64,000 nucleotides of DNA from Haloferula rosea. GTDB lineage: Bacteria; Verrucomicrobiota; Verrucomicrobiia; Verrucomicrobiales; Akkermansiaceae. Position 1 is the first letter of the stretch, and every line of letters begins with the position of its first letter. Below the pieces are notes generated by a model that ran no database searches, was not told the DNA's origin, and was given only the letters and a program-made list of their open reading frames with translations. Location of the stretch: the NCBI RefSeq assembly GCF_016595525.1, contig NZ_JAENII010000004.1:1-64000 (forward strand), read 5' to 3'. The position numbers and the translations under genes are program-made. Below, piece after piece: positions 43,451 through 52,995 of this stretch.

Positions 43451-44287
43451 ATGCTTCGATTTCTTTTCCTGATCCTCTTCACCGCTCACGCCACTGCATT
43501 CACTTATCCCCCTGAGTTCGCGGGGGTCCGCAGTGAAGTCTACAGGACCGTCGGTGATACCGAGCTCCGGTTGTGGTTCTTTGGCAAAGCCGAAGAAGGG
43601 CATCCGAAACCGGCCATTGTCTTCTTCTTCGGAGGCGGATGGAACAGTGGTTCTCCCGCCCAGTTCGAACGCCAGGCAAAGCACTTCGCCGAGCGCGGCA
43701 TGATCGCCATGGTCGCCGACTATCGGGTGAAGAGCCGGAACCAAACGCCTGCCGTCGAATGCGTGAAGGACGGGAAGGCGGCCATCGCCTGGGTGCGCAA
43801 GCATGCGAAGCGGCTCGGCATCCACCCGGAACGGATCGCCGCTGCAGGGGGCTCCGCTGGGGGTCACGTCGCCGCCACCACCGGCACCCTCACCGGCTTC
43901 GGCTCCGATGAGCGCCCCAATGCCATGATCCTTTTCAACCCAGTTCTGACCCTGGCGGATCTCGACGGGTGGAAGGCGAAAGGCTTTGGAGTCAAGGGGC
44001 GGCTCGGCGTCGGGAAAGCCGAGGACCTTTCACCTTCGCATCATATCGGAACACACACCCCTCCCACCCTCATCCTCCACGGAGACAAGGATACCACCGT
44101 CCTGCTTTCCTCCGTTCAGGTCTTCGAGGCACGCATGAAAAAAGAGAGCCGTCCCTGCAAGCTCGTCGTGTATCCGGGAGCAGGTCACGGCTTCTTCAAC
44201 CGCGGACAGACCTACGACGAAACGCTCGCGGAGGCCGACCAGTTCCTCGTCGATCTCGGCTGGATCAAGCCGGTCGACACCAACTGA
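43451..44287 (+). CDS. Secreted alpha/beta hydrolase
   Basis: A 278-residue enzyme with a signal peptide (MLRFLFLILFTAHATA). The oxyanion hole is FFFGGGWNSGSP, the nucleophile AAAGGSAGGHVAATT, the acid LHGDKDTTV and the His PGAGHGFFN. This is the second BD-FAE-like esterase set in the window with a nearly identical architecture (see 5183 and 24517), though their sequences are clearly diverged. It probably deacetylates polysaccharides. A DUF5690-like transporter gene follows after 59 bases. Confidence 0.87.
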   Translation: MLRFLFLILFTAHATAFTYPPEFAGVRSEVYRTVGDTELRLWFFGKAEEGHPKPAIVFFFGGGWNSGSPAQFERQAKHFAERGMIAMVADYRVKSRNQTPAVECVKDGKAAIAWVRKHAKRLGIHPERIAAAGGSAGGHVAATTGTLTGFGSDERPNAMILFNPVLTLADLDGWKAKGFGVKGRLGVGKAEDLSPSHHIGTHTPPTLILHGDKDTTVLLSSVQVFEARMKKESRPCKLVVYPGAGHGFFNRGQTYDETLAEADQFLVDLGWIKPVDTN

Positions 44288-44346
44288 GGGGTTCTGCCCG
44301 CAGACGGCGCTGGTATCCAAGGCTGCCGGAGCCTATCAATACAACA

Positions 44347-45660
44347 ATGGCAGATCGATCGGAGCGGAGCCGGATCACGGCGCATCTCGCCAGTCACCCA
44401 AAGACATTCGTCCTCTTCGCGACGGCATCCGCCTTCGCCTGTTACTTCTGTACCTACGCCTTCAGGAAACCCTTCAGTGCGGCGACCTTCGAAGGGGTGC
44501 CACTCTTCCTGTCATTCGATGGCCGGACGCTGGAACCCAAAACCTTGTTCGTCATTGCCCAGATCTTCGGCTACTGCGTGTCGAAGTTCATCGGCACCCG
44601 ACTGTGTGCGGAGCTGCGCCGCGAAGACCTCGCCAAGGCACTGATCATCACCGTCCTGCTCGGCATGCTTGCCCTTCTGGGATTCGCGACCCTTCCCCTG
44701 CCGCTGAAGGTGATCGCCATCTTCCTGAACGGGATTCCGCTGGGTGTGATCTGGGGATTCATCGTTCGATACCTCGAGGGGCGCAGCACCTCGGAACTCC
44801 TGCTCGCCGGCCTTTCGAGCTCCTACATCCTGTCCAGCGGCGAGGTGAAACGGGTCGGCCGCTGGCTGATCGAATCGGGCGTGTCGGAATTCTGGATGCC
44901 CTTCGCCACCGGTGCCCTGTTCCTTCTGCCCTTCCTCGCATCGGTCGGCTTGCTGTCACTGCTTCCCGCTCCCAGCGCCGAGGACGAAGCCCTGCGCATC
45001 CGCCGCCAACCGATGGACCGGGAACGCCGCTGGGCCTTCATGCGGCGCTTCTTTCCCGGCATGATCCTGCTTTGCATCGCCTACCTGTTCCTGACTGCCT
45101 ACCGCGACTTCCGTGACAACTATCAGGCCGACCTGTTCATGCAGATGGGCATCGAGGAAGCCGCCGCCTTTTCCCGCACCGAACGCCCGATCGCCTTCTT
45201 TGTCATGATCGTGATGGCCCTGCTGTTCTTGATCCGCAAGAACCGCACCGCGCTCGCAGTGAGCTACGGCATCATGATCTCAGGCCTGGCCATGATGGGT
45301 GGCTCGACGTGGCTCTATCAGAGCCGGGAGATCAGTGGTGAAATGTGGATGATCGCCAGCGGCTTGGGTGCCTATCTCGCCTACGTTCCTTTCGGCAGCC
45401 TGTTGTTTGACCGCACCATCGCGGTAACCCGGTTCCAAGGCACGGCAGTATTCGCCATCTACGTGGCCGACGCATTGGGGTACACCGGATCAGTGGGTGT
45501 GCAGCTGTACAAGGACCTCTTCGCAGGTGACGAGAGCCGCTTGGACTTCTTCATGAACTTCACCTATGGCATGGCCGCCGTCGGCATCCCCCTGATGGCG
45601 GGCGCGATGATCTACTTCCTCGGACAGAAGCCGGAGCCGGAGCCAGCTACGGACGCGTGA
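44347..45660 (+). CDS. Major-facilitator-like membrane transporter (DUF5690-like)
   Basis: A 437-residue inner-membrane protein with 10-12 hydrophobic helices, for example AFACYFCTYAFRKPFSAATF, LPLKVIAIFLNGIPLGVIWGFIV, MIVMALLFLIRK and MAAVGIPLMAGAMIYFL. The CTYAFRKPFSAATFEG segment is found in the DUF5690 family, related to the MFS superfamily. The substrate is unknown; a sugar or organophosphate is plausible from the neighbours but not shown. Its 3' end overlaps the convergent phosphatase gene by 14 bases (45647-45660). Confidence 0.8.
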   Translation: MADRSERSRITAHLASHPKTFVLFATASAFACYFCTYAFRKPFSAATFEGVPLFLSFDGRTLEPKTLFVIAQIFGYCVSKFIGTRLCAELRREDLAKALIITVLLGMLALLGFATLPLPLKVIAIFLNGIPLGVIWGFIVRYLEGRSTSELLLAGLSSSYILSSGEVKRVGRWLIESGVSEFWMPFATGALFLLPFLASVGLLSLLPAPSAEDEALRIRRQPMDRERRWAFMRRFFPGMILLCIAYLFLTAYRDFRDNYQADLFMQMGIEEAAAFSRTERPIAFFVMIVMALLFLIRKNRTALAVSYGIMISGLAMMGGSTWLYQSREISGEMWMIASGLGAYLAYVPFGSLLFDRTIAVTRFQGTAVFAIYVADALGYTGSVGVQLYKDLFAGDESRLDFFMNFTYGMAAVGIPLMAGAMIYFLGQKPEPEPATDA

Positions 45661-48409
45661 TCCTGAAGTACTCCTTTGCCCGAACCCCCAGATCGACCGC
45701 CACCGCCGCCTGCATCAGGGAACCCGTTCCCACCATCTCGAGCACATCAACCCAGTTCGTCAGGTCGGTGCTACGCTGGATCTGATAGGGCACGCCGCTC
45801 TCGCTTTGCCACCAAAGTTTCATCTCACTCCCATCGAGCGCCGACTGCTCGATTCGGAAGGGAACTTCGGGAGTCACCGTGAACAGGAAGCGATTCGAGA
45901 CCTCGGTGTAGGAGTCATTGATGAAGAGGGCCAGGAAGTAGTCTCCCGGCGGAAGTTCAGGCAACTCGAAGGTGACGCTGCCCGTCGTGTTTCCATCCAC
46001 ATAGAGGTAGGCCGTCAAGACGTCCTCACCCGGCGTTTCCCCCTGCTTGAAGATTCCCATCCAGTCCTTCGGAGTTCCCGGTCCGTCCGTGAAATCAACG
46101 GTGAAGTCCTCACCTTGTCGGACCGTCGCGGAAGCCATGGAAACCTGTGAGATCTCCGTGCCCACCGAGAACCGCACCCGCTGGGCAATGCCGGTGTATC
46201 CGCCGTTGAGGAAGTAGTCGGCAAAGTAGTATCCCTTCGGCAAACCATTGAATGACAGGGTGCCCGCCTCACCTGCGGTTCCCGGTGTCCGGGTTCCATT
46301 CAGGTAGTCCCAGTCGGTCGACAACTCTGTCCCGGGCGTGTCGCCTTCCCGGTAGATTCCGATCCAGTCGCTGTCTCCTGCGGGTGCACCCGCATACGAG
46401 ATCTCCACCGTTTCCCCCTCGTCGAACGACTCCTTGTTCGGCGTCAGCGTCGGTTCATCGCCCACATAGAACGGCACCCGTGGTGCGATCTCCGCGTAGC
46501 CATCGTCCGTGAAGAAGGCCACATACCATTCCCCTTCCGGAAGGTTCTGGGTGAAGTTCAGCACCCCGCTCGATCCATCGACATAGGACCACGCCGTCGA
46601 AGCCGTGCCGGAGCCCGGCGTATCCCCCTTTCGGTAAATACCGATCCAATCCTGAGCAAGGCCGGGGCCGCCACTGTAATTCACCTGCACATCCTCATTG
46701 AGGGCATACACCTTCTTCTCGATGGAAATCTCTGGATCTCCGGTGAAACCACTTCCCGTCACCTCGAACTCCAGTGGAGTGGACCACTCCGACCACTCCA
46801 CGTTCGAGTCCCGGTGACGCACGCGGGCGAAGTACGTTCCGTCAGCGAGGGAGTCCACCGGCAACTCGTACTGGAGGATGTCCACCCCGTCATGGGTATC
46901 GATCGGCGTGTAGTCCGGAGCTCCCGTATCTCCATAAATGTTCTCCACATCCCTCAGGCGATCCACCTTGAGATCAAGGAAGGACGCATCTGTCGCCACC
47001 TGGAACCAGGTGCTGTTGAGCACCTCCGAGGTGGAAGTCGAGAATGCCGCACTCTGAAGAGTGAGGGGCAGGGTGATCGGAGCAGGCTCCGAATTCGTCA
47101 GGCTGGGTTTGCCCGGCGCGGCGACACCCAGCTTGCGGCTGAACTCATCGACCAGAAGGCTGTTGTAGGACCAGCGGGTCGCAGTGGGGAACTTCACGTT
47201 CGCCTCCGCAAAGCACTTCACATTCATCGTCCGGGCATCCAGATCGAACTCGATCAACTGCCAGGCCCAATGCGCCAGGGTCTTCTGCACATCGTCGTAG
47301 TCCGCCTCGTTCGACTGCCCCCAGAACTGGTCCCACGAGCTCCCGCCGGAGATGATGTGGTAGATCGGCCAATCCCGCGTCTGTCCCCTCGCATAAATGT
47401 GGTGGTGCGCCCCGATGTTCAGCACGTGCTTCCCGGTCTGGGCGAAGACCTGCATCGCGGTATTCCTCAACCACCCGGAGATGTCGCCGATGTACTGCTC
47501 GGCCTGGTAGGGGCGGTGGCAGAGGCTGATCATCCAGTCGATCCCGGAGTCCGCTTCGGCCGCATCCACGAGGTTCTGCACCCACCCGGTCTGCGTGGCT
47601 CCGGTGTGCTCGCTCGAGGTGTGGACAAAGGCGACGTTGGCCAGCTGATACGCATAGTAGACCTCGGGATCGGGGCTGCTCACTCCGGCGCAGGTGAAAT
47701 CATCATAGGTGAACAGGGTCTTGTAGTTGGCAAGGCCCGGGTCCTGATAGGTTTCGTGGTTCCCGATCGTCGTCATGATCGGAATGTACGGGGAGATCCA
47801 TCCGTTGAACTCGAAATGCAGGTTCCGATAGTGATTCAGGGTTCCCACATCGACCTGATCACCCGGCATGATGGCCACGTCGATCGCTTCCTCGATGGGA
47901 ACCCCGTAGAGGTCCTCGACCTTCTTCTTGGCCCGCTCGACAAGCCGCTCGAACCTTCGCTGGCTCGGATCGATGATCTGGTTGTCCCCCAGAACGAGCA
48001 CACGGAATCTGCCCGTCGAGGTTCCAAGGGGCTTCGGGGTGCGGAAACGGAACGTGGCGGAAGTGACGTTCTCCGTTCGAACCCGGTATTCATAGTAGGT
48101 GTCCGGCTGAAGCCCGGTGATCTGGCCCGCATGATAGTGGTAGCCGGAGCCCATGACCGTCCGACTTCCCGTCACGGTCTGGTTCAGGGGCCCACCATCG
48201 ACACCGTAGTCGATGAATGTGTCCGCATCGCTGTCCGTCCACCAGCTTACCCGCATCGAGTCGGGGCGCGGAGCGTGGAGATACGGACGCAGCCCGGCAG
48301 GCGTGCCGCTGAAATTGAAGTCAATGGCTCCGAATGCGGAACCGGGACGCAGGAAAGAGGCACCTACGGCGGCAAAGCTGCTGAGGCGCAGGAATTGGGA
48401 TCGATTCAT
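45647..48409 (-). CDS. Secreted calcineurin-type metallophosphoesterase with three DWIGIY domains
   Basis: A 920-residue protein with a twin-Arg-less signal region (NRSQFLRLSSFAAVGASFL). Residues 40-125 form a purple-acid-phosphatase-like fibronectin domain (MRVSWWTDSDADTFIDYG), and 135-400 the metallophosphoesterase domain with VLGDNQ (141-144), PGDQVD (182-187), IGNHE (215-219), CHRP (298) and GAHHHIYAR (334-341), which would bind two metals. Residues 555-650, 651-752 and 753-847 are three DWIGIY repeats (coordinates 46738-45869), and a C-terminal module ends FRITRP. It probably acts outside the cell on phosphomonoesters or on phosphorylated glycans. It is one of three neighbours sharing this domain. 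Confidence 0.9.
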   Translation of the reverse strand: MNRSQFLRLSSFAAVGASFLRPGSAFGAIDFNFSGTPAGLRPYLHAPRPDSMRVSWWTDSDADTFIDYGVDGGPLNQTVTGSRTVMGSGYHYHAGQITGLQPDTYYEYRVRTENVTSATFRFRTPKPLGTSTGRFRVLVLGDNQIIDPSQRRFERLVERAKKKVEDLYGVPIEEAIDVAIMPGDQVDVGTLNHYRNLHFEFNGWISPYIPIMTTIGNHETYQDPGLANYKTLFTYDDFTCAGVSSPDPEVYYAYQLANVAFVHTSSEHTGATQTGWVQNLVDAAEADSGIDWMISLCHRPYQAEQYIGDISGWLRNTAMQVFAQTGKHVLNIGAHHHIYARGQTRDWPIYHIISGGSSWDQFWGQSNEADYDDVQKTLAHWAWQLIEFDLDARTMNVKCFAEANVKFPTATRWSYNSLLVDEFSRKLGVAAPGKPSLTNSEPAPITLPLTLQSAAFSTSTSEVLNSTWFQVATDASFLDLKVDRLRDVENIYGDTGAPDYTPIDTHDGVDILQYELPVDSLADGTYFARVRHRDSNVEWSEWSTPLEFEVTGSGFTGDPEISIEKKVYALNEDVQVNYSGGPGLAQDWIGIYRKGDTPGSGTASTAWSYVDGSSGVLNFTQNLPEGEWYVAFFTDDGYAEIAPRVPFYVGDEPTLTPNKESFDEGETVEISYAGAPAGDSDWIGIYREGDTPGTELSTDWDYLNGTRTPGTAGEAGTLSFNGLPKGYYFADYFLNGGYTGIAQRVRFSVGTEISQVSMASATVRQGEDFTVDFTDGPGTPKDWMGIFKQGETPGEDVLTAYLYVDGNTTGSVTFELPELPPGDYFLALFINDSYTEVSNRFLFTVTPEVPFRIEQSALDGSEMKLWWQSESGVPYQIQRSTDLTNWVDVLEMVGTGSLMQAAVAVDLGVRAKEYFRITRP
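45869..46738 (-). repeat. Three tandem DWIGIY domains inside the phosphatase
   Basis: Approximate coordinates are 46738-46457, 46456-46154 and 46147-45869. Each copy is 90-100 residues with DWIGIY or DWMGIF followed by (R/K)xGDTPG, a Y(V/L)(D/N)G strand, then GEWYVAFF, GYYFADYF or GDYFLALF, (D/N)DGY or NGGY, and a finishing F(Y/S/T)V strand. Copies are about 30-40% alike by eye, so the duplication is old. Confidence 0.8.
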
Positions 48410-48432
48410 GAGGTTTGGGGAACCGTCGGCAT

Positions 48433-50109
48433 TCAAGGGGCAGGAGCCTCGATTTCATACACACGGTAGAATCGGCGGACGGGAGTGGGCTCGGGCAGAT
48501 CCTCAGTGAAGGTGGTCGTTCCGTCCCCGTCGCTCGCCAAGGCGATCTGAACGATCTCCCAATCGAAGACAGGGTCACCCTCGAGGGTGTCCGAAGCATA
48601 GATATCATATTCCATGCCCGCCTTTGATTCCCACTCGAGTGTCAGGATCTCGCCGTCCACCGGATCGTTGCCACGGACCACGGAAACCACCTTGATGACC
48701 TCTTCCACCGGTTCCACCACGCTGAAGGTCAGAGGACCACCGACGATCTCGTAGCCATCATTCAACATATGGACGACGTAGTAGTCTCCCAGAGGAAGCG
48801 TGAATTCGACGGAACCATCGACCGGGCCGGCACCCGCGGACTGGGTGCCGTTCAAATACCTCCACTGGGTCGAGAAGTCCGTGCCCGGGCTGTCCTCCAT
48901 CCGGTAAACCCCGATCCAATCGGTCGGCCCGGCCGCAGCTCCGGTCCAGCTGACCGTGAGCGTCTGGCCACCCACCACACTGGCGCTATCGATCGAGAAG
49001 GCGGCGGTATTTTCCGCGGCACGAAGGACTCGCTTGGTCACCGATTGGCCACTGGCATTCGCCTCGATGCTGAAGTCGGTCACTGGAGCCGGCACCATCA
49101 CCGAAGTCGATCCAAGCCCCGTCAGGGGATCGGTATCGGAAGTCACATCCACGGAACCGGTCCCATCGGAAAGGGTCACCGTCGCGCCGGGCGGGCTGAC
49201 TTCCCATTGAAGCGTCACCATGAAGTCCGGCCCCACCACCAAATCGGAATCGGAGGTCAGCGACAGGCTTTCGCCAGTCAGCAGTGCGAGCTCCTGCTCC
49301 AACCCGGTTGAAAGCTGGAGCGTGAAGACCGTGCTCTGGGTCACTCCGGACAGAACGATGGAACCCAGTCCCGTCCCCAGATCGGTCGAACCCGTCACAT
49401 CGACGGCACCCGATCCATCATCCAGCGAAACGGTCAGCGTTGGCGAGCTCTGAGCAATTTCCCAGGAAAGGGTCAGATCCGTTCCATCGATGTACTGAAG
49501 ATCACTCGCGAAGGAAACGATCTCCGGGACCCGCGGCCCTTGATCAAAGGTCACGTTGTCGATCGCCAGATAGTCCTGGAGACCGCCGGTCTGGGTCAAG
49601 GAGAGGGTCAGGACTTCGTCCACCGCACCGGTCTCGTTGATCGCTACGGTCTCGCGGATGCCAGCAGTGTTCCCGGTCCAGGTTCCGCTCGCCAGGATCC
49701 CGCTTGTCGGCCCTTCAAGCTGCCAGTCGACAACCACCCCGCCACCACCAGCCCATTCGTCGAGATCCACACTCGTGACTTCGACGAAGGTTCCGGTCTT
49801 CGGAGCGAACTCAATCGATGCCGCCGTACCATTCAGCTGAAACACGTCACCACGACCATTCCAACTGGTGTAGGTTTGCCATCCGGAGTCCCCGAGGGGC
49901 GACCAGGTGACCGCGACGTCCGGAGTGCCCACCACTCCGGAAGCACCGGCAGCCACCGAGATACCCGGAACCGCTGCCGCCACATTACTGCCATAGTTTG
50001 CCGGGACATCCTGATTGGAGCCCGTCCAACTCCCTTCGAGAACGGTGGTGGCGTGGCTTGGGAGCAGCAATGCAGCTCCCAGAAGTGTGGAGATGACGAA
50101 TGGCTTCAT
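48433..50109 (-). CDS. Secreted Ig-like protein with one DWIGIY domain
   Basis: A 558-residue protein with a signal peptide (MKPFVISTLLGAALLLPSHA). Residues about 22-190 contain a lectin-like beta-sandwich (DWQLEGPTSGILASGTWTG). Two internally related strands blocks lie near 200-275 and 280-360 (SGAVDVTGSTDLGTGLGS and GTGSVDVTSDTDPLTGLGS). A DWIGIY domain (TDWIGVYRMEDSPG, LNGTQSAG, GDYYVVHMLNDGYE) occupies 369-466 (coordinates 49005-48712). The end (RRFYRVYEIEAPAP) has the FYRV module. It lies 23 bases upstream of the phosphatase gene on the same strand, so they are one operon. Confidence 0.82.
   Translation of the reverse strand: MKPFVISTLLGAALLLPSHATTVLEGSWTGSNQDVPANYGSNVAAAVPGISVAAGASGVVGTPDVAVTWSPLGDSGWQTYTSWNGRGDVFQLNGTAASIEFAPKTGTFVEVTSVDLDEWAGGGGVVVDWQLEGPTSGILASGTWTGNTAGIRETVAINETGAVDEVLTLSLTQTGGLQDYLAIDNVTFDQGPRVPEIVSFASDLQYIDGTDLTLSWEIAQSSPTLTVSLDDGSGAVDVTGSTDLGTGLGSIVLSGVTQSTVFTLQLSTGLEQELALLTGESLSLTSDSDLVVGPDFMVTLQWEVSPPGATVTLSDGTGSVDVTSDTDPLTGLGSTSVMVPAPVTDFSIEANASGQSVTKRVLRAAENTAAFSIDSASVVGGQTLTVSWTGAAAGPTDWIGVYRMEDSPGTDFSTQWRYLNGTQSAGAGPVDGSVEFTLPLGDYYVVHMLNDGYEIVGGPLTFSVVEPVEEVIKVVSVVRGNDPVDGEILTLEWESKAGMEYDIYASDTLEGDPVFDWEIVQIALASDGDGTTTFTEDLPEPTPVRRFYRVYEIEAPAP
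48712..49005 (-). repeat. DWIGIY domain copy in the Ig-like protein
   Basis: The fourth of six copies in the cluster: TDWIGVYRMEDSPGTDFS, then WRYLNGTQ, GSVEFTLPLGDYYVVHML, NDGYEIVGGPLTFSV. It shares the pattern of the copies in the two adjoining genes. Confidence 0.78.
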
Positions 50110-50148
50110 GGTCGACGTGGGTAATTTTGTTAGAGAGTATTCGGCATT

Positions 50149-50907
50149 TCAGGCGCGACGACGAAGCCGCACGAGGAGAAGGCCGGACGCGCAGAGAAGG
50201 AAGGTGGAGGGCTCCGGAACGACTGAGAACGAAGTTTCCGCGAGAACGGTGTATCCGTCGTTCGCCAGAAGATAGGCGTCGTAATCGCCGGCACTCAGCG
50301 AATCAAAACCACTGAGGTTTCCGTCGGTTCCGGAGGTGTACTGAAAAGCCGTCGAGAACTCGACACCCGGAGTTTCGCCGTCCCGATAGATGCCAATCCA
50401 GTCGGTGCTCACAAAACCATCGTTGCCGGACCAATCGAAGCGGATCGTCTCCCCAGCCTCATAGCTCGCCTTGTCGGCTACAAGTCCGATGCCCAGGGAC
50501 GGAGCAACCGTGAAATTCACTCCGCCCACGGTTCCAGCGACCGCACCATATCCATTGTTCGACAGGAAATGGACCGTCCAGTTGCCGAGGTAGGCATTGT
50601 TCAGCTCGAAGGTTCCCGTCGCGAGTGCGTCCAGATCGGCCGAACCGGATGCCTGGGTGCCGTCCACATAGCCCCAGCTTGTCGCCGCCGGATCCCCGGT
50701 GGGGACCACTCCATCAGGGTAAACCCCGATCCAGTCGGTGCTCGAACCACCACTGTGATCCGCGAATGAAGCCGTGATGGCATCACCAGGACGGAAGGTC
50801 GTTGCATTCAGCGTCAAGGTCGCCGCATGGGCAGCCGGATGCACAAGGGTCAATAAGCATGCTCGAATGAGCAGGGTGCTGAGGAAGGAGGGAGCAGGAG
50901 TTTTCAC
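50149..50907 (-). CDS. Secreted PEP-CTERM protein with two DWIGIY domains
   Basis: A 252-residue protein with a signal peptide (FLSTLLIRACLLTLVHPAAHA) and two tandem DWIGIY domains, residues 29-136 (DWIGVYPDGVVPTGDP, WTVHFLSNNGYGAVAG) and 139-230 (DWIGIYRDGETPGVEF, GDYDAYLLANDGYTV). The C-terminus VPEPST, a hydrophobic stretch, then RLRRRA is a PEP-CTERM sorting signal, recognised by the exosortase system. The preferred start is a GTG at 50907 preceded by ggaggaggg; an in-frame ATG at 50937 is possible. It lies 39 bases before the Ig-like gene and probably forms the first gene of the operon. Confidence 0.85.
   Translation of the reverse strand: MKTPAPSFLSTLLIRACLLTLVHPAAHAATLTLNATTFRPGDAITASFADHSGGSSTDWIGVYPDGVVPTGDPAATSWGYVDGTQASGSADLDALATGTFELNNAYLGNWTVHFLSNNGYGAVAGTVGGVNFTVAPSLGIGLVADKASYEAGETIRFDWSGNDGFVSTDWIGIYRDGETPGVEFSTAFQYTSGTDGNLSGFDSLSAGDYDAYLLANDGYTVLAETSFSVVPEPSTFLLCASGLLLVRLRRRA
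50218..50823 (-). repeat. Two tandem DWIGIY domains in the PEP-CTERM protein
   Basis: Approximate coordinates are 50823-50500 and 50493-50218. The first copy is the most diverged (GVYPDGVVPTGD), the second is close to consensus (GIYRDGETPG, ANDGY). Confidence 0.78.
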
Positions 50908-51063: not shown

Positions 51064-52995
51064 ATGATGGCTCGAAGCAGACCCCTTATCGGAATCCGAT
51101 ACCCGCAGTGGTCCTCGTACGGATCCCAGGCCATGCGGGGGGTGGTTGAGTTCATGCGGGGGCACGAACTGTGGCGACTGATCACCGAGAATGATTCGTA
51201 CGGCGAAATGGAAGCCACCCGGATCGATGCGGACTGGCAGGGAGACGGATTGATCCTGTTCCGCGCCACCGAGGCCGAGCTCGCGGCATTCAGGAAGCGC
51301 GGGATCGCAGTGGTCATCACCAGCAGTGAAGGCCCCGACGGCGGCTTCCCACGGGTCGTGCCGGACAACGCACAGATCGGACGCGCCGCCGCCGCCCACC
51401 TGATCGAAAGGAACTTTGACGACCTCGCCTTCCTCGCTCGGGGAGAAACCTACTACCAGGAGGAAATCTTCGCACCCGGACTGCGCACCTACGCCCGCCA
51501 GAGACTGAGAGGGTTCTCCGAGTACCTTTCCCGCTACTCCCTCGAGCCCACCGTCCACTACCTGCGCGGACGCCCGCTTTGGAAACCTGAAAGCTGGCGC
51601 CAGATCCAGACCGAGGTCATGGCATTCCTTGAGACACTCCCCCAGCCATGTGGGCTTTTCACCGCCGACGATTCTCTTGGGGCCGTCGCGCTGAAGGCCG
51701 CCGACCTGCTCGGCATGCGTGTGCCCCAGGACCTCGCCGTGATCGGCTACGGGGATGATCACGCCTACTGCTATTCGACCTTTCCGGCCCTCAGCAGCAT
51801 CGAGCATCCCGGCAGGGCCATCGGATTCAAGGCCGCCGAGTGCATCCACGCCCAGCTGGAGGGAGGCGCCTGTGACACCCCTTCACAGATCGTGCCCATC
51901 GGTCCCACCATTGCCCGGGAATCGAGTGACACACTCTCGATCGAGGATCCCATCATCTTCGATCTGGTCAGCTGGATCCGACATCAGGCACCCCATGATC
52001 CCATTCGCGTCTCCGAACTCGCCGAACGCAGCGGCTTGTCCATGACCACCTTGAAACACCGCTTCGCCGAAGCCCTCGGCCACAGCCCGAAACAGGAAAT
52101 CAAGTCGACCCGGCTCATCCACCTGAAACGCCTGCTCCTGCGGAACGAACTCACGCTCGGGCAAATCGCCGAGGCCATGAAGTTCACCTCGGCTCACCAA
52201 CTCAGCCGGTTTTTCCAGACCGAGACCGGCGAGCGGCCATCCGACTACCGCGCCCGGATCTCCAAGTCAGCACCATCAAGCCGGGCCTCGACGCCCGGAG
52301 CAGTCATCTTCGACATGGACGGCACCCTGTTCGACAGCGAGGAACTTTACTTCCGGGCCTATCAGCAGGCCTACGCCGACCAACAAGGAGAACTGAGCAG
52401 GGCCGACTATTTCACTCACTACGCCGGCACCTCGAACTCCCACATCGAAGCCTGCCTGATCGAACAAGCACCCACCGGATTCAAACCCGCACGCTTCAGA
52501 ACCCAGTGGAAGGACTACTGGCACCGCATGATGAAGAGGGAAGGTCTCAAGACCCTCCCCGGTGTCAGGGAGCTGCTCACGAACCTCCGTCAGCAAGGCG
52601 CCCCGATGGCACTCGCAAGTTCAAGTGACCGCGCCGAAGTCGATTGCTGCCTGAACGAAAGCGGACTCTGGACCTTCTTCGACTTCACCATCGCCGGTGA
52701 TGAAGTGACCTCCGCCAAGCCCGATCCCGCCCTGTTCCTCAGGGCCGCCGAGGGACTGCACCAGCAACCCGAAGACTGTCTCGTCATCGAAGACTCCATC
52801 GCAGGCATCCGCGCCGGAAACGCTGCAGGAATGCACGTCATCCATGTCGTCAGCCATCCGGCGACCAACAGCGAGGAGGAATCCTGGTTGAGGGTCAGGT
52901 CACTCGCTGAGATCGAATGGCCCATCATCCGGGATTGGCTCAATGGGGCGCGCGGCCGACCCGGAGTGGAAGCAACCCCACCCAAGTCGCACTGA
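51064..52995 (+). CDS. XylR-type transcription regulator fused to a HAD-family hydrolase
   Basis: A 643-residue fusion. Residues 7-290 are a periplasmic-binding-type sugar-sensing domain (GIRYPQWSSYGSQAMRGVVEF, ADDSLGAVALKAADLLG, LAVIGYGDDHAYCY). Residues 297-400 form the AraC double HTH (IRVSELAERSGLSMTTLKHRF, LGQIAEAMKFTSAHQLSRFFQ). Residues 413-625 are a beta-phosphoglucomutase-like HAD phosphatase with DMDGTLFDSEE (Asp417 and Asp419), ASSSDR, Lys552 in TSAKPDPALF and IEDSIAGI. The fusion of a XylR-type regulator to a HAD hydrolase is unusual. It is divergent from the DWIGIY operon and upstream of the sialidase, and may control both. Confidence 0.88.
   Translation: MMARSRPLIGIRYPQWSSYGSQAMRGVVEFMRGHELWRLITENDSYGEMEATRIDADWQGDGLILFRATEAELAAFRKRGIAVVITSSEGPDGGFPRVVPDNAQIGRAAAAHLIERNFDDLAFLARGETYYQEEIFAPGLRTYARQRLRGFSEYLSRYSLEPTVHYLRGRPLWKPESWRQIQTEVMAFLETLPQPCGLFTADDSLGAVALKAADLLGMRVPQDLAVIGYGDDHAYCYSTFPALSSIEHPGRAIGFKAAECIHAQLEGGACDTPSQIVPIGPTIARESSDTLSIEDPIIFDLVSWIRHQAPHDPIRVSELAERSGLSMTTLKHRFAEALGHSPKQEIKSTRLIHLKRLLLRNELTLGQIAEAMKFTSAHQLSRFFQTETGERPSDYRARISKSAPSSRASTPGAVIFDMDGTLFDSEELYFRAYQQAYADQQGELSRADYFTHYAGTSNSHIEACLIEQAPTGFKPARFRTQWKDYWHRMMKREGLKTLPGVRELLTNLRQQGAPMALASSSDRAEVDCCLNESGLWTFFDFTIAGDEVTSAKPDPALFLRAAEGLHQQPEDCLVIEDSIAGIRAGNAAGMHVIHVVSHPATNSEEESWLRVRSLAEIEWPIIRDWLNGARGRPGVEATPPKSH

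Follow-up and report, generated by a model that had tools for sequence, protein, structure and literature searches.

Three neighbouring genes of Haloferula rosea carry one domain of 90-100 residues between them, six times over, and one of the three encodes a metallophosphatase. This raises the question of what the domain is and what it does beside a bacterial phosphatase. An earlier note, made from the sequence alone, had likened it to the eukaryotic SKICH domain (PF17751). Known carriers of SKICH are autophagy receptors and inositol phosphatases, such as NDP52/CALCOCO2, TAX1BP1, SKIP/INPP5K and PIPP; eukaryotic SKICH domains mostly bind proteins, and they recruit proteins or membranes inside the cell. 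We analysed the locus within a stretch of 64,000 nucleotides (the window; contig NZ_JAENII010000004.1, positions 1 to 64,000), together with relatives of the domain in other bacteria and on plasmids.

The locus carries six copies of one domain

All three genes lie on the minus strand and were read as translated open reading frames: a PAP-like metallophosphatase of 920 residues (45647..48409), a companion protein of 558 residues (48433..50109) and a PEP-CTERM protein of 252 residues with a GTG start (50149..50907). The whole window was searched in six-frame translation with a profile of 119 rows, which were copies of other genomes, every row named from the window being excluded. This returned exactly six copies at 66-117 bits; the next-best stretch reached 4 bits, which rules out chance as their source. 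Copies 1 to 3 are in the phosphatase (46460..46735, 117.1 bits; 46160..46453, 105.6 bits; 45872..46150, 98.1 bits), copy 4 is in the companion (48715..49005, 76.7 bits), and copies 5 and 6 are in the 252-residue protein (50503..50823, 68.1 bits in the protein and 65.9 in the longer open frame; 50218..50487, 83.8 and 81.8 bits, respectively), all on the minus strand. Aligned over ~92 columns, the six share 13 invariant positions, including D-W-x-G, P-G, Y, G and F-x-V, and identity to copy 1 is 31-44%. Thus, the out-of-genome profile search and the copy alignment bear out what had been described from the sequence, namely three, one and two copies in three adjacent genes with common motifs, in number, place and motifs alike.

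Two plus-strand frames border the locus. The first (43969-45660) encodes a predicted major-facilitator-type membrane transporter, convergent to the phosphatase gene and overlapping its end by 14 bases. The second (51064-52995) combines, by eye, a LacI/XylR-like sensor, an AraC-type DNA-binding region and a HAD-like phosphatase domain in one open frame, possibly two fused genes.

The domain is SKICH-like in sequence and predicted structure

Pfam SKICH (curated cut-off 23.4 bits) matched the 920-residue phosphatase at 31.0 bits (E 3.8e-7) and, just above the cut-off, the 252-residue protein at 23.8 bits (E 6.8e-5), both scores being sums over several partial matches. The Pfam scan of the 558-residue companion gave no SKICH match, and copy 1 on its own scored 16.6 bits. 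A family alignment (A2) of 125 rows, mostly below 60% mutual identity, was assembled from public and related genomes. Among 24,736 Pfam families, SKICH was the top family for its members (60 of 125 at E up to 0.1), followed by HECW_N (21 of 125) and a third family (8 of 125); some whole proteins with the domain exceed the Pfam HECW_N cut-off. The family fn3_PAP (PF17808), which from its name we take to be probably the N-terminal domain of lupin PPD1, matched weakly (5 of 125, best E 0.007), and a search of related genomes with it returned weak matches only.

In the reverse direction, with A2 as query against 177,635 PDB sequences, domains of NDP52, TAX1BP1 and HECW2 made up the first 7 of the 12 matches listed (E 0.002-0.02). 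The HMMER match to NDP52 was collinear over profile positions 8-80. With hhalign, A2 aligned to NDP52 and TAX1BP1 stretches at 93-95% probability, compared with 0.2-0.3% for shuffled and reversed controls, and the aligned core comprised ~33 columns around DWIGIF/DWIGIY. The profile searches therefore ended at SKICH, and no unrelated, well-characterised bacterial family was returned. The proposed resemblance holds in that SKICH is the top family in both search directions; it is weaker at the level of the single copy, with copy 1 alone below the cut-off and the profile-profile match concentrated on a short core. For these two reasons, 'SKICH-like, same superfamily' is safer wording than 'is SKICH'.

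An AlphaFold2 model of copy 1, built with A2, had a mean pLDDT of 97.3 and folded into a beta-sandwich of seven strands, in line with the proposed likeness, that superposes on every listed SKICH structure. Foldseek placed NDP52 first, as the sole match at E <0.001. In VIA-align, the best match was lupin PPD1 residues 23-143 (Z 11.3, rmsd 1.9, 93 residues, 20% identity), followed by eight SKICH entries, all of those listed (Z 10.4-10.9, rmsd 1.9-2.0 over 87-90 residues). The first other folds were an alpha-2-macroglobulin domain (Z 9.7) and a GH66 domain (Z 9.3), and because this Z margin is modest, the case rests on sequence and structure jointly. In PPD1, the N-terminal domain overhangs the active site, and the text of the structure paper makes no mention of SKICH (PMC4062093). 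Taken together, sequence, profile and predicted structure support the repeat as a bacterial extracellular member of a SKICH / PPD1-N superfamily of Ig-like beta-sandwiches.

The phosphatase is PAP-like and has conserved neighbours

The 920-residue protein contains a Pur_ac_phosph_N (FN3-like) domain at residues 44-124 (48038..48280, minus strand; PF16656, 66 bits, E 4.6e-18) and a calcineurin-like Metallophos domain at residues 135-339 (47393..48007, minus strand; PF00149, 35.8 bits, E 1.4e-8). A model of the whole protein (pLDDT 85.5) matched red kidney bean purple acid phosphatase (PAP) with Z 38.8 over 367 residues and PhoD with Z 26.1. Its metal-ligand motifs are GD142, GD184QVD, GN217H218E, H298RP and H335HH337. 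Across 38 homologues, GDQVD, GNH, HxP and HHH are invariant, the first GD is found in 35 and gapped in 3, and the position of the GDxxY tyrosine of PAPs is occupied by Asp in all 38. The Asp, Asn and His metal ligands of the PAP type are present, that is, the seven-ligand set without the tyrosine. Since this ligand is replaced by Asp in the invariant GDQVD, the enzyme is PAP-like and probably active but should not be purple; assignment as a true purple acid phosphatase was rejected, the Tyr ligand being absent.

Members of this phosphatase family are 36-72% identical to the window protein and occur in Verrucomicrobiota, Bacteroidota and Gammaproteobacteria. The profile recovered 72 open frames, a large share of which stem from overlapping fetches that cover a single gene. 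Copy number of the domain in the family ranges from 2 to 7, and several of the Bacteroidota proteins scanned end in a type IX sorting tail. In a quick tree based on few columns, copies 1, 2 and 3 each grouped with their positional counterparts from other phyla; label changes numbered 5, 2 and 3, respectively, compared with ~31, 30 and 19 in shuffles. As the copies group by position across three phyla, the triple array is probably old and has probably been kept as a unit.

Judging from their N-termini, all three window proteins are predicted to be secreted, the 558-residue middle protein as a non-catalytic companion. A companion homologue adjoins the phosphatase in six of eight genomes of the genus, namely that of the window and five of the seven others, and Luteolibacter marinus has all three genes together, as in the window. 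Two Prolixibacteraceae encode a five-copy protein directly upstream of the phosphatase. No SKICH-like neighbour of the phosphatase was present within the fetched flank in Flavobacterium and most Bacteroidota. The PEP-CTERM anchor that the earlier note had assigned to one protein is the tail of the 252-residue protein (50155..50220, minus strand; VPEPSTFLLCASGLLLVRLRRRA). It is clear by eye, with a VPEP motif, a hydrophobic stretch and an RLRRR end, and scores slightly below threshold with both profiles (18.2 against a Pfam cut-off of 20.7, and 14.6 against an NCBIfam cut-off of 16 bits). On the Eleftheria terrae plasmid NZ_CP106952.1 (L199:826-3450), a phosphocholine-specific phospholipase C carries one SKICH-like copy and ends in a dockerin. 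Its gene is followed by a PEP-CTERM protein gene, a phosphoesterase/PEP-CTERM pairing like that of the window.

In bacteria the domain accompanies secreted phosphoesterases

The domain does stand beside a bacterial phosphatase, as had been pointed out, and its phosphoesterase link proved far broader than one enzyme. Its partners span five phosphoesterase superfamilies: PAP-like, ExoIII-like EEP, PhoD, GDPD and phosphocholine phospholipase C. Copies are found on EEP enzymes in Verrucomicrobiota, Paenibacillus and Actinomycetota, on a PhoD protein in Saprospiraceae, and on a GDPD protein adjoining the phosphatase in a Verrucomicrobiales genome. Two draws, of Actinomycetota and of plasmids, were not started from an enzyme sequence. 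The Actinomycetota draw covered 346 genomes and gave 12 full-length proteins, of which 11 were EEP enzymes, with a mild bias in that 2 of the 125 A2 rows come from one actinobacterial EEP protein; the remaining protein was a PAD_porph/agmatine deiminase. In the plasmid collection, with the three window copies alone as query, all three matches were phosphoesterases (one phospholipase C and two EEP, an Embleya protein being called EEP from motifs shared in translation). By this association, which consists of raw counts, the domain is in bacteria an accessory domain of secreted phosphoesterases. Other partners are agmatine/peptidyl-arginine deiminase, pectate lyase, FecR and a non-catalytic verrucomicrobial family, and dockerin domains terminate the Hahella phosphatase and the Eleftheria phospholipase.

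The domain order in Actinomycetota is EEP then SKICH-like. Against the PDB, the EEP profile matched ExoIII/AP endonucleases and no inositol 5-phosphatase, and membership of the SKIP/INPP5K phosphatase family through the EEP domain was rejected on this basis. Because the bacterial EEP domain resembles these endonucleases and not 5-phosphatases, the SKIP-like order may have arisen independently in bacteria.

The domain is sparse: the phylum draw had it in 5 of 289 genomes, and the draws from the phyla of a Flavobacterium and a Nocardioides had it in 13 of 395 and 10 of 346, respectively. No relatives were found in phage records or, by a pattern scan that tblastn confirmed, in viral contigs, and a phage or viral origin was rejected accordingly. 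Three further architectures were seen. A mobilizable plasmid of Enterobacter bugandensis (L200:2932-4368) encodes an EEP enzyme that is exported and has a SKICH-like copy at its N-terminus; its gene lies beside those for Tn3 transposase and recombinase, with a gene of the phospholipase D family nearby. In Paenibacillus agaridevorans, one frame (L051:2444-8302) encodes two SKICH-like copies with an EEP domain between them, then a polysaccharide lyase family 8 domain and an F5/8 type C domain. Twenty-six verrucomicrobial open frames (L043-L083) form a family with SKICH-like copies, usually two, close to the N-terminus; the ~400 further residues, possibly a jelly roll, gave no clear match to an enzyme in those members that were scanned.

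Discussion

What, then, do the copies do? We consider it fairly probable that the repeat is at once a member of the SKICH / PPD1-N group, an accessory domain of secreted phosphoesterases and a non-catalytic positioning module, a reading that bundles identity with function. The copies would hold the secreted enzyme on a phosphate-rich polymer, a membrane or a cell-surface partner. The companion with its single copy and the anchored PEP-CTERM protein with its two would serve the same target, either as accessory binders or as a dock on the surface. Positioning is suggested by analogy with the PPD1 N-domain, which overhangs an active site, and with SKICH, which places INPP5K at membranes; in the INPP5K/CIL-1 case, SKICH is needed for recruitment (PMC8507493). 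Several points count against positioning. Every conserved residue could belong to the fold core, SKICH in eukaryotes binds mainly proteins, some copies sit on non-phosphoesterase enzymes or non-catalytic proteins, and the A2 profile was seeded largely from phosphatase-linked copies.

In a different role, the copies would be passive spacers in the manner of many Ig/FN3 repeats, whose sole effect is to raise the enzyme above the cell or to make secreted proteins longer. The variable copy number of the phosphatase family would suit such spacers, as would the presence of copies on non-catalytic proteins, and the most strongly conserved positions (D29, W30, G32, P40, Y51, G57 and G68) may be the fold core. 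However, a passive role should not favour five unrelated phosphoesterase superfamilies, and the three copies hold position-specific sequences across phyla; we regard the spacer role as unlikely. About equally doubtful is a protein-protein docking module, close to the role of SKICH in NDP52 and TAX1BP1, in which the copies of the phosphatase, companion and PEP-CTERM protein would bind each other or a shared partner to form a surface complex. The conserved adjacency of the companion, the five-copy protein of the two Prolixibacteraceae and the dockerin ends of the Hahella and Eleftheria enzymes favour docking, whereas the phosphatases of Flavobacterium and most Bacteroidota, which lack a SKICH-like neighbour in the fetched flank, argue against it. 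The spacer and docking roles both overlap with the positioning reading. Convergence, that is, a shared Ig-like fold with a chance DWIGIY motif, would explain the short profile-profile core, the sub-threshold score of copy 1 and the closeness of the alpha-2-macroglobulin and GH66 domains, but is very improbable given that SKICH and HECW came first in both search directions and that the HMMER match was collinear with blank shuffled and reversed controls.

Pfam already assigns such proteins to SKICH, and the resemblance is therefore visible to any annotation pipeline. New are the phosphoesterase link, which spans five superfamilies, and a structural bridge from SKICH to the N-domain of plant PPD1. 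The earlier note knew of no described role in bacteria, and the open-access library searched yielded no paper on a SKICH-like domain in bacteria. Open-access papers pairing SKICH with bacteria, Bacteroidetes, prokaryotes or Ig-like families were host-side or irrelevant only, and those found did not discuss the origin of SKICH.

As bacterial copies are mostly fused to five unrelated kinds of secreted phosphoesterase, our data suggest an old helper domain of phosphatases, which was put to new use in eukaryotes at a later stage. A more far-reaching version, which we put forward tentatively and think somewhat improbable, is that SKICH was at first an accessory domain on phosphoesterases secreted by bacteria (or on very ancient ones), that plant PAP N-domains and the SKICH of SKIP and NDP52 are two eukaryotic offshoots, and that one ligand, phosphoester-related or on a surface, is common to all copies. 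If so, the shared ligand could be found with the bacterial proteins. The bacterial family joins two orphan eukaryotic domains, SKICH and PPD1-N, and its secreted tandem versions could make a ligand findable by ordinary binding assays.

Compared with known systems, the repeat is like SKICH in its DWIGI(F/Y) strand, its collinear profile match and its Ig-like sandwich (Z 10.4-10.9). Unlike eukaryotic SKICH, the bacterial copies are in tandem, predicted to be extracellular and without a coiled coil. The actinobacterial EEP proteins resemble INPP5K in having the SKICH-like domain after the phosphoesterase domain, yet their catalytic domain is ExoIII-like and not a 5-phosphatase. Another relative is the N-terminal domain of HECW1/2 (PF16562; 2lfe), the second-best Pfam family, with the same fold (Z 8.8), which in contrast to the window copies belongs to a eukaryotic ubiquitin ligase. 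The phosphatase itself shares Pur_ac_phosph_N, the metallophosphatase domain and the PAP fold (Z 38.8 over 367 residues) with plant purple acid phosphatases, and its catalytic half is also like bacterial PhoD (Z 26.1), whereas the GDxxY tyrosine ligand of the plant enzymes has given way to the invariant GDQVD of the window family. The best structural match of all is the N-terminal domain of lupin PPD1 (3zk4), which likewise sits on a phosphatase of the PAP fold; the plant domain is single and N-terminal, whereas the window copies are multiple and C-terminal.
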